64,000 nt of DNA from Beroe forskalii (Eukaryota; Ctenophora; Nuda; Beroida; Beroidae): NCBI GenBank assembly GCA_011033025.1, contig WFMF01000582.1, positions 1 through 64,000 of the forward strand, given 5' to 3'. The notes under the pieces are model-generated. The model was not told the origin of the DNA. It worked only from the letters and a program-made list of their open reading frames with translations, and did not search any database. How positions within the stretch are numbered: the first letter of the stretch is position 1; each line of letters begins with the position of its first letter. A program made the translations under genes and the position numbers. Shown piece by piece: positions 47,192-60,922 of the stretch.

Positions 47192-49721
47192 TCAAAGGTG
47201 AGCAGAGAAATCCGCAGCAATATCCGCCGCAAGTCTGATAACAGCACCTCCCTTCTCGTGGTTGCAGAACAGCACCACAGTGACACCGGATAGGGGGTCA
47301 GCTGTCACCTGGTCCCCAGTGACACCTGACAGGGGGTCTGCTGTCACCTGGTCCCCAGTGATGTGGTCCCCAGTGATGTGGTCCAGACTTGAAGTGTCGG
47401 AGTAATCCTCAAGGTGGAGGGGGGCTACCAGCAGCACACTGGTTGCTCCCACTGCCCCGCCCGTGTGCTTTACTCGGTGGAACTGAGAGGGTAATCATAA
47501 TGTTACACCTGATCGATAGATTTCGGACGCTGTCGGACCCCCTGAATTCTCATGAGGGTCTGTCAACGGCCGACAAATTGACAGACAAGAGCACATCTCG
47601 TGCTGGTTAGCTGTATAGGAATAACTTCTTACTATAGATAGAATTACAAATTAGTACAATCACTAATTAGTAGAATCACTAATTAGTATAATCACTAAAT
47701 CAGTAGAATCACTAATTACCTGTCTGATTTTGCCATGCTGCGTGACCTCTGGGACGGTCACCAAACCCAGTCCGTAATATTCCTCCGTCCCGTCACTCTT
47801 CCTTACTTCTGTGCCTGAGAGACCAGTACTCATCAGTCGAAAGGTCTTGTCTGGTGTTACCAGACCAGCTGATGCAGCCGCTATTTATAAGCGGCTGCAA
47901 GTGCAACAGCTGAGAACTGCAAGCGGCACGACATATTATTTCGCACCAGGGACGATCATCGATAGTCAAGTCGAAAGCAACTCGTTAAAAGGGTAGAAGA
48001 GTAAAAAGGACTGGTAGTGGTAAGTCTACAGTATAAGGAAAACATACGATTCTTCCTTCCTACCTCTAGACCAGTACCTCTCGACGTGTTGCTCTCGACC
48101 TACGAGCAGATAAACGTGAACAAGAATCCATAATTCAGCTGTCATAGAGACAAATAATCCTTTTTTATTGACTTCTGCAACATCAGAGTTATTTATAAAC
48201 TGTAAAAAGCTGTAAGTAAAAAAACCTTGCTTGTAAGCAGTCATGTTTCTGATAGACTCCTCACTCAGGTACCTGCCCCGGCTTCCAGCGACCCATTCCT
48301 CCCCTCCTTCTTCCTCCCCTCCTCCTTCCGTGATCTCTCCTCCTTCTTCTTTCTTCTTTCCTCCTCCTCCTTTCTTCTCTCCTCCTTCTTGCTTCTCTCC
48401 TCTTCCTGCTTGGAGAAGGTAGAGGAGGATGTCCCCTAACTGGGCGATATCCTCAGCATTGCTCACCAACCCTCCTCCAGCCCACTTACATGACAGGTCA
48501 ACAGCAGGCGTGTTCTGAGAGGGAGTCAAATTTAGGATTTAATATAAACAATCAGAATTCAGATTCTAATTAATCACGAAAGGTTGCCCTAAAGTCTAAA
48601 CTGAGACATAGTTTTCACAAACAGCCACTCTTAAAAAGCAACTTTGTTTGCCTTTTTGCAACCAAAAGAGGATGGATCGGACTACAGCACTTCTGTACTG
48701 TAGTCCGTAGATTAAAATAGGGACTAAGGGTAACACAAAACTAAAAACAGAATGATCGCATGTTGAGAATTTGTCCTAAGCATTTCTTGCCATGTCACAT
48801 TGTCACCTGGAGAGACCCATTCTCGGCATTGGAGTAGTACCGACACCGATTAGGAATGATCTTATCTCCCTTATCAAACTGGACACTCGGCAGCCCCAGC
48901 TCAGCTCTGAACTCCGCTACTAGCTTCTCAAAGTCCTTCCCAGCTGCTTTTTCCAGGACGAAGCTGAGCAGGCTGTACCTACGAAACAACCGGTTAACTG
49001 AACCGAAACCGAAATACCGGTTAGCCGGGCGTTTTCAGGCAACCAAAACCGAAATACTGGTTAACCGGGCGTTTTTTGCGAAGTTGCGAACAGAAATCGT
49101 TACCGAAAATTTTGATTTCGCAATTGACCGATTAGGGAAATCGGTCGGTTTACCGAACAGAAACCGGAATACCGGGTAACCAGTGTTTAAGCGAACCGTA
49201 ACCGGGTTTATTGAGACATTGGGTGGTATGCATAACTAGGGAATCTCTTATTTAAGAGAAACCCTAAACTTATAAGGCAAAGTCCTTATGTATAAGGCTT
49301 TTTCTTTAGGCATAAGGCAAAACCCTTATAACCATAAGAGATTCCCTAGTTATGCATACCACCCATTGCAACTGGTCGTTTGGAAGCTGTACCCGAATGT
49401 GGTGTAGTTGAAGTGGGTGCCGGGCTCACCCGAATGTGGTGTAGTTGAAGTGGGTGCCGGGCTCACCCGAATGTGGTGTAGTTGAAGTGGGTGCCGGGCT
49501 CACCCGAATGTGGTGTAGTTGAAGTGGGTGCCGGGCTCACCCGAATGTGGTGTAGTTGAAGTGGGTGCCGGGCTCACCTGAATGTGGTGTGTGGAAGTGG
49601 GTGCCGGCTCACCCGAATGTGGTGTAGTTGAAGTGGGTGCCGGGCTCACCCGAATGTGGTGTAGTTGAAGTGGTGCAGGCTCACCCGAATGTGGTGTAGT
49701 TAGAGCTTCCAGGCGTGTTTA
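47192..49721 (-). CDS. LACTB: LACTB-like serine beta-lactamase-like protein, 3' exons only
   Basis: Exons on the minus strand: about 49685-49721 (PGSSNYTTFG, partial), 48807-48978 (YSLLSFVLEKAAGKDFEKLV...), 48226-48514 (NTPAVDLSCKWAGGGLVSNA...), 47720-47814 (EEYYGLGLVTVPEVTQHGKI) and 47192-47482 (FHRVKHTGGAVGATSVLLVA..., stop at 47192). Phases 2, 0, 1, 0 agree and all sites are GT-AG. The order YTTFGYSLL, KWAGGG, YGLG, HTGGAVG matches the second half of vertebrate LACTB, a mitochondrial filament-forming member of the penicillin-binding/beta-lactamase fold. The SxxK half is not in the window. Two oddities: exon 48226-48514 has a Gly/Glu/Lys insert of about 40 residues, and the last exon has in-frame repeats (DHITG twice, GDQVTADPLSGVT twice). 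The 5' truncation coincides with the A/B duplication junction. Confidence 0.87.
48985..49200. repeat. degenerate CCGGTTAACCGGGCG repeat
   Basis: Irregular units of ACCGAAATACCGGTTA and CCGGGCGTTTT. Resembles 1020-1118. Confidence 0.55.
49221..49364. mobile_element. 144 bp MITE
   Basis: Perfect ~30 bp terminal inverted repeats starting GGGTGGTATGCATAACTAGG, flanked by ATT on both sides. In an intron of the LACTB-like gene. Confidence 0.75.
49393..49690. repeat. 37 bp minisatellite made of a LACTB exon end plus splice donor
   Basis: About eight units of CGAATGTGGTGTAGTTGAAG plus TGGGTGCCGGGCTCACC. On the minus strand each unit reads TTCAACTACACCACATTCGG|GTGAGC, i.e. the codons for FNYTTFG followed by a consensus 5' splice site. 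The outermost unit (49685-49721) is the only one preceded by a different, coding-like sequence. Confidence 0.85.
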
Positions 49722-49734
49722 TGCTATGTATTCA

Positions 49735-60190: not shown

Positions 60191-60922
60191 CAATCTCTCA
60201 CAGCATTGAAGCTTTCTTCATTTGTGATGTCATACATGAGCAGGAAACCCATGGCGCCTCTGTAATATGCTGTTGTGATGGTCCTATAACGCTCTTGGCC
60301 TGCTGTGTCCCAGATCTGAAGCTTCACTCTCTTGTCATGCCTGTGAATGAGTGAAATAGGTACATGATGCATACTTCTAGGACAGAGAAAAACCATAATA
60401 GCAGAAATATCAGCAGAAATACCTTTATTATTATCTAAACTTGTTTGCCGTCAGCACAACCATGAAGCTCCTTAATGAATATAATATAATAAATTATGAA
60501 AAAAGAGGTATGTTTATCATGCCAATTATCATTGTGCTGTAGTTAAATAATTCTATTCAATTCCATTGAAAAATAATAATTACAATATTAACTGTATCAC
60601 TAACCTGTATACTGTTTTGACTTTGAAATCAATTCCAACAGTTGAAACAAAGGCTTGAGTGAAGGAGTTATCACAATAACGGAATAAAAATGACGTCTTC
60701 CCAACACTTGAATTTCCTGGAGTCAGAATAATGAAGTCAAAATGAAAATAAAATCATCAAAATGTGGAGAAATTATAATGTAATGTATTTTATAATGAAC
60801 AAAATAAATGCAATTTAAATGAGGAAAATTGAAGAGTGGGAAAAGTAATTTATATGTATTAGGTACTTACCAATTATCAAGAGTTTAAACATATAATCAA
60901 ATGTTTGGTCATTAGCATCCAT
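60191..60922 (-). CDS. Rab3: Rab3 GTPase, exons 1-3, unit B
   Basis: Exon 1 60871-60922, exon 2 60605-60716, exon 3 60191-60340, all with intact ATG and GT-AG sites. Against unit A there are four base changes in 314 coding bases (three in exon 3, one in exon 2, none in exon 1), all synonymous, while introns and flanks carry many substitutions and indels. It has no own exons 4-5. It could splice across unit A to 25766 (same phase), serving as an alternative first half or promoter, or into LACTB exons. Equally, it may be the other allele placed in series by the assembler. Confidence 0.88.

Follow-up and report, generated by a model that had tools for sequence, protein, structure and literature searches.

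Chimeric gene structures at tandem duplications are known from Drosophila yakuba (PMC5460883), where, in the portion of that study available to us, the truncated 5′ part of one gene comes to lie before the 3′ part of another. Similar structures can be produced by genome assembly, as the available portion of a second paper (PMC9516828) describes false chimeric gains in which duplication of a block brings together exons from different genes. Introns made by transposons are also a known kind, according to the part of the Introner work available to us (PMC9860276). Here we describe a locus of Beroe forskalii at which the first three exons of a Rab3 gene precede four 3′ exons of a LACTB gene. This arrangement is like that of the D. 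yakuba chimeras, for which the available text gives expression changes measured by RNA-seq, whereas the Rab3–LACTB structure is known from the assembly alone. A limited search of open-licence papers found no report of a Rab3–LACTB fusion.

The window analyzed was positions 1–64,000 of contig C672, which has 97,445 bases with 0 N and belongs to an assembly of 216 Mb in 1134 contigs. Self-comparison showed two direct copies of one segment (units A and B, Table 1) whose breakpoints lie within two co-oriented genes, the configuration in which a tandem duplication can give a chimeric gene. A and B align in 15 collinear pieces, which together comprise 10,122 ungapped positions, or about half of unit A, with a mean point mismatch of 4.5% (2.8–12.7% among the pieces) and 14 gap openings per kb. 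Much of the unaligned remainder is accounted for by insertions present in just one of the units. Both genes are of animal type. The best PDB matches of the first are named Rab-3C, Rab-3B, and Rab-3, and the best three matches of the second are named LACTB, mitochondrial (7v1y, 7v21, and 7ulw). The intact LACTB gene of unit B aligns with these over ASISK, FNYTTFGY, and HTGGAVGA, and 7v1y has FLYSTFGY where this gene has FNYTTFGY.

Table 1. Features of the Rab3–LACTB locus (window positions unless a contig position is given; a slash marks an exon boundary).
Feature	Position	Strand	Remarks
Unit A	28634..49701		runs from Rab3 intron 3 (left edge) into LACTB exon (right edge); self-BLAST
Unit B	50116..64000, on to contig ~67560		direct copy of unit A; self-BLAST
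Rab3 exon 1, unit B	60871..60922	-	
Rab3 exon 2, unit B	60605..60716	-	
Rab3 exon 3, unit B	60191..60340	-	ends AGA GAT TG/gtgagt, phase 2
Rab3 exon 1, unit A	39627..39678	-	complete gene
Rab3 exon 2, unit A	39361..39472	-	
Rab3 exon 3, unit A	38945..39094	-	
Rab3 exon 4	25727..25766	-	left of unit A, outside duplication; starts ttttcag/G TCA
Rab3 exon 5	25247..25510	-	outside duplication; NKCD, ETSAK, CC end
LACTB exon La, unit A	48807..48978	-	acceptor tttcgtag/G TAC AGC, phase 2
LACTB exon Lb, unit A	48226..48514	-	has Glu/Lys/Gly-rich stretch
LACTB exon Lc, unit A	47720..47850	-	
LACTB exon Ld, unit A	47192..47482	-	with stop; HTGGAVGATS
LACTB L2–La intron, unit A	48979..49390	-	MITE copy split by inserts, one palindromic (~49218–49363)
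LACTB L2–La intron, unit B	contig C672:67315-67526 (L003:3315-3526)	-	204-base MITE with 8-bp direct repeat GGTACAGC on both sides
37-bp tandem array	49391..49701	-	8.5 copies; unit A only
Junction transposon	49706..50115	+	410-base 5′-clipped copy of abundant ~415-bp element

When read 5′ to 3′ along the minus strand, the order of the locus is complete LACTB, Rab3 exons 1–3 (unit B), LACTB exons La–Ld (unit A), and complete Rab3, so that both parents are intact beside the predicted fusion. The complete Rab3 gene (39678–25247, minus strand) has an intron 3 of 13.2 kb and, as modeled, an open frame of 205 aa. The complete LACTB gene (L1, L2, and La–Ld; contig 68521–65537, minus strand) consists of unit B sequence and its own 5′ exons, and it has a modeled open frame of 502 aa when a start codon is assumed. 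Searches of the assembly recovered two copies of LACTB exon La and two full copies of Rab3 exon 3, plus one 50-base match to the latter at 84% identity. A query of Rab3 exons 4–5 gave one full match, and the other 39 matches were partial and 73–88% identical (40 of 65 candidates scored); LACTB L1–L2 as a query likewise matched in full at a single place, and its remaining hits were fragments of the array in unit A and two 74–76% stretches on contig C1047. From these searches, we conclude that the assembly has two copies of each duplicated exon that was queried and one of the outer flanking exons. Because ∼1 kb of sequence 5′ of Rab3 is common to both units (4.0% mismatch), the Rab3 promoter sequence was probably duplicated too. 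The first-pass annotation had proposed that a tandem duplication may have created a Rab3–LACTB chimera; the arrangement, with A and B as direct copies in the assembly, is present as described, and a duplication is our best reading of its origin, with a false duplication as a rival.

The junction between the units had been placed at a point near 50100, but this position falls inside a transposon copy that separates A from B. The element is dispersed and abundant, with at least 64 matches (40 of 642 candidates scored), and its best other copies are 97–98% identical to the one at the junction. The bases upstream of the element are TTATGCAC in 10 of 11 other loci and TTTTGCAC in the remaining one (L014), whereas in the junction copy these bases are replaced by AGAG and the first 8 bases of the element are missing. 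The 3′ end of the element, CCCTTCA, is intact as it is in 11 of 11 other loci, and it runs into Rab3 intron 3 at GTATCTACTG; unit A has the matching empty, uninterrupted intron site, CTTAGTATCTACTG. On the LACTB side of the junction lies the 37-bp array, whose unit combines the 3′-terminal 35 bases of LACTB exon L2 with the GT of the intron that follows. One intact copy of this unit is present in unit B, adjoining contig position 67527, and the remainder of exon L2 is absent from unit A. Each array copy carries a donor-like CGG/GTGAGC site. The order across the junction is LACTB array, AGAG, and clipped transposon, with no long homology or overlap.

Recombination between two transposon copies, one in LACTB and one in Rab3 intron 3, was considered as the origin of this junction and appears unneeded. 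End joining would fit the sequence better, since the junction copy has lost 8 bases at its start, and four unexplained bases separate it from the LACTB array. The presence of the element in B and its absence in A point to two different homologues as the donors, in the animal or in the computer. On the simplest reading, unit B would come from a chromosome whose Rab3 intron 3 contained the element and would have its breakpoint at the 5′ end of that element, and unit A would come from a chromosome that lacked it. The transposon copy was also tried as a means of dating the junction. Over 409 positions it differs at 8 sites, 5 of which are private, from the majority consensus of 13 copies of at least 96% identity. 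This consensus includes the junction copy and, being made from best matches, is biased towards it; the other 12 copies have 0–6 mismatches each. The resulting 1.2–2.0% is too near the ∼1.7% per branch of local noncoding sequence to order the A/B divergence and the junction, and the date was set aside.

The LACTB acceptor of the predicted fusion belongs to an intron that corresponds to a second transposon. In the unit B form of the L2–La intron, the left repeat supplies the donor GT, and the acceptor AG is composed of the last A of the element and the first G of the right repeat. Splicing out the 204-base MITE restores the LACTB exon exactly, and the unspliced frame stops after ...FGYS. The structure of this intron indicates that the acceptor at 48978 was made by MITE insertion. 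We take the inverted ends and ∼8-base repeats of the element to resemble those of hAT MITEs. The family has 421 candidates in the assembly, of which 40 were scored. Twelve other copies were cut out, and an automatic test tolerant of small shifts found direct terminal repeats of 6–10 bases in 10 of them and none in 2. Like the Introners in the available portion of that work (PMC9860276), the LACTB intron is a DNA transposon with inverted ends, an 8-bp direct repeat, and a donor derived from the repeat; it differs from them in that its family, at most a candidate for generating introns, has one clear intron here, and 0 of the 12 other copies, inspected by eye from the 40 of 421 candidates scored, has a splice-compatible repeat like that of LACTB. 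Elsewhere in this gene, a unit B insert of ∼60 bases (contig C672:66143–66204) at the start of exon Lc replaces the first bases of the exon, and an in-frame AG acceptor is kept in both units.

Analysis of the exon boundaries bore out the structure that the first-pass annotation had drawn. Rab3 exons 1–3 of unit B (60922–60191) lie upstream of the four LACTB exons of unit A (48978–47192) on the same minus strand, Rab3 exon 3 ends with the TG of a Trp codon, and exon La starts with G TAC in the way that Rab3 exon 4 starts with G TCA. The join of Rab3 exons 1–3 (B) to La–Ld (A) is in frame and gives 1197 bases that encode 398 aa with no internal stop. The splice sites of the fusion are all GT-AG, and the predicted intron from 60191 to 48978 is 11.2 kb long. 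The intron phases of the parents, as modeled, are 1,2,2,0 in Rab3 and 1,2,0,1,0 in LACTB. The phase match alone is therefore unremarkable, since all three phases are found in each parent and a random intron–intron join would be in frame about 1/3 of the time. The proposed acceptor has 9 pyrimidines in 15 bases; among eight acceptors compared, five have 11 and two have fewer (7 and 8). Within the predicted intron there are 375 YAG sites, 56 of which have at least as many pyrimidines as this acceptor.

The predicted product keeps the G1–G3 motifs of Rab, including DTAGQE, and covers positions 1–99 of the 162 in the Pfam Ras profile. As had been annotated, it is without NKCD and ETSAK, both of which are encoded by Rab3 exon 5 outside the duplication, and it also lacks the C-terminal cysteines of Rab3. 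When compared with mitochondrial LACTB (PDB 7v1y, 7v21, and 7ulw), the fusion retains only the part after YTTFG. It keeps HTGGAVGATS and is without ASISK (SxxK) and FNYTTFG (the Tyr motif), which are located in exons L1–L2, and it matches positions 149–233 of 329 in the Pfam Beta-lactamase profile, with 28.1 bits against a cut-off of 27. The roles of G1–G3, NKxD, and SAK in Rab3 and the catalytic roles of SxxK and the Tyr motif in LACTB are presumed here. On this content, we do not expect the fusion to work as a GTPase or a hydrolase. Because the predicted protein is without key parts of both parents, the fusion is probably an accident and not a new working gene, and the most likely outcome would be at most a low-level transcript whose product is without folding or function.

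Based on the above comparisons, we consider it probable that the locus is a real tandem duplication with a transposon at its junction and a fusion that is probably non-functional. A segmental tandem duplication of ∼17–21 kb would have its junction at the 5′ end of the copy of the transposon that lies in Rab3 intron 3. There, a broken end close to the 5′ end of this copy may have been joined to the LACTB exon with four odd bases (AGAG) and no long homology. Such a duplication, if it is physically real, would have left a complete Rab3 gene (unit A and exons 4–5), a complete LACTB gene (unit B and the 5′ exons), and between these parents a truncated pair set head to tail, with Rab3 exons 1–3 followed by LACTB La–Ld. 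If the Rab3 promoter copied in unit B is active, a transcript spliced from the 60191 donor to the 48978 acceptor would encode the 398-aa fusion, in frame because both broken introns are of phase 2.

A possible, if somewhat unlikely, alternative is that the duplication is real and that no fusion mRNA is made, as the unit B Rab3 transcripts end or are spliced elsewhere. These transcripts may end by early polyadenylation, may use a cryptic exon in the array or the transposon, or may skip to Rab3 exon 4 at 25766. The YAG sites that equal or exceed the proposed acceptor in pyrimidine count (56 of 375) and the repeated donor-like sites of the 37-bp array are consistent with such outcomes. However, the parental Rab3 intron 3 is longer than the predicted fusion intron (13.2 versus 11.2 kb), and the intact gene must splice it out; the same LACTB acceptor must likewise function in intact LACTB.

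The coding sequences of the two units were also compared. Between A and B, Rab3 exons 1–3 show 4 synonymous changes and no nonsynonymous ones, and LACTB La–Ld show 16 synonymous and 9 nonsynonymous changes, 4 of the latter outside the low-complexity stretch. The count excluded the 37-aa Glu/Lys/Gly stretch of Lb, which holds 5 of the 9 nonsynonymous changes in LACTB, and the start of exon Lc, where A and B differ by an insertion. Lb and Ld also differ in net length between the units, by 18 and 48 bases, respectively; these differences are in frame and were not scored as frameshifts. The local noncoding divergence is 3.3% over ten stretches that we chose (4856 positions, with the LACTB Lb–Lc intron, at 4.0%, omitted). 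At this rate, a neutral truncated branch would be expected to have 13.7 nonsynonymous changes compared with the 4 observed (Poisson P 0.002) and 4.3 frameshifts compared with 0 observed (P 0.013). At the lower rate of the junction transposon (1.2% per branch), the P value for the nonsynonymous count is 0.03, and when the synonymous divergence (20 of ∼256 sites), which is above the noncoding one, is used instead, the nonsynonymous deficit grows. These counts indicate that the truncated halves were constrained as coding sequence for most of the A/B divergence. They are better preserved than would be expected of a dead copy, which is a point against our preferred reading. Such constraint fits alike a divergence that was mainly allelic and predated the duplication, a false duplication, or a selected fusion.

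A false (heterotype) duplication, in which A and B are two alleles that the assembler or a chimeric read set head to tail so that no chimera exists, is in our judgment unlikely. The 4.5% mismatch between A and B, with its many indels and insertion differences, resembles that of divergent haplotypes, the coding changes are mainly synonymous, and the transposon in Rab3 intron 3 is present in B and absent in A as it could be between homologues. False chimeric gains of this kind have been described, and in the portion of that report available to us (PMC9516828) they came with gaps, depth drops, and linked-read discordance, whereas there is no gap at the Rab3–LACTB junction; a gap is reported as typical and is not required. 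The absence of a long overlap at the junction also speaks against such a mis-join.

Further evidence on this point came from other parts of the assembly. Ten test segments, a non-random set of long open frames from already sampled stretches, some in gene families (C692, with 79–80% relatives on C414), were searched for second copies. A copy of at least 90% identity on another contig was found for 0 of the 10 segments, and 3 of the 10 had a 95–99% copy on their own contig, two of these inverted and 50–75 kb off. Two controls from known tandem duplications both recovered their partners (91 and 97%), and one also had a 90% copy on contig C476. Rab3 exons 4–5 and LACTB L1–L2 were likewise without an allele-like copy on another contig. 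These results favor real duplication over a haplotype mis-join, though they are not proof, and a purged assembly would give the same result.

Local duplication seems frequent in this genome. In addition to the Rab3–LACTB units, tandem duplications were found on the same contig (C672:1502–10298 and 10299–∼20390) and in a 50-kb sample of C110; the sampling covered two 50-kb stretches. The mean mismatch of the three is similar (0.045, 0.040, and 0.051), as mis-laid alleles could also give, and the 10 test segments are without a second haplotype for comparison. By contrast with what mis-laid alleles would be expected to give, other copies on the same contig are inverted or spread over 86–99% identity; second open-frame copies of this range were seen on C692, C312, C25, and C110, direct or inverted and 3–75 kb away. 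A candidate on C336 was not counted, as one analysis chained two partial copies ∼15 kb apart (1817 bases, 95.4%) and a second kept a different 865-base piece. A related transposon end (CTCGTTACTAAACC, ∼10284) was considered as the start of the second C672 duplication and rejected; this stretch proved to be part of the duplicated unit, so we propose no general rule about transposons. The second C672 duplication (1502–20390) holds a PIH1-domain gene, whose second copy has a different C-terminal end.

That a Rab3–LACTB protein is made and has been retained by selection since the duplication is very improbable, because the open frame without frameshift, the 4 synonymous and 0 nonsynonymous changes in Rab3 exons 1–3, and the deficits of nonsynonymous changes and frameshifts, which it would account for, are equally expected if most divergence arose while both haplotypes had intact genes, and the product is without NKCD, ETSAK, the C-terminal cysteines, SISK, and YTTFG. 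It is just as hard to credit a selected fusion that acts, say, as a Rab3 fragment with dominant interfering activity or as a partner in LACTB assembly, with an acceptor from an earlier transposon and a gene junction from a second one.

If the duplication is real, as we think probable, the locus would be a clean example of a transposon-junction duplication and a transposon-made intron jointly setting up a potential new gene. If it is false, the locus would show how a haplotype mis-join can imitate gene birth. Real or false, the fusion probably gives no working protein.

Two other features of the units were observed. An open frame of 345 aa (35686–36723), which contains an internal repeat of 126 bp and has no Pfam match, lies almost entirely in an insert that is found only in unit A. 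A 32-bp minisatellite in Rab3 intron 3 has ∼30 copies in unit A (34225–35191) and ∼94 copies in unit B (54979–57969).
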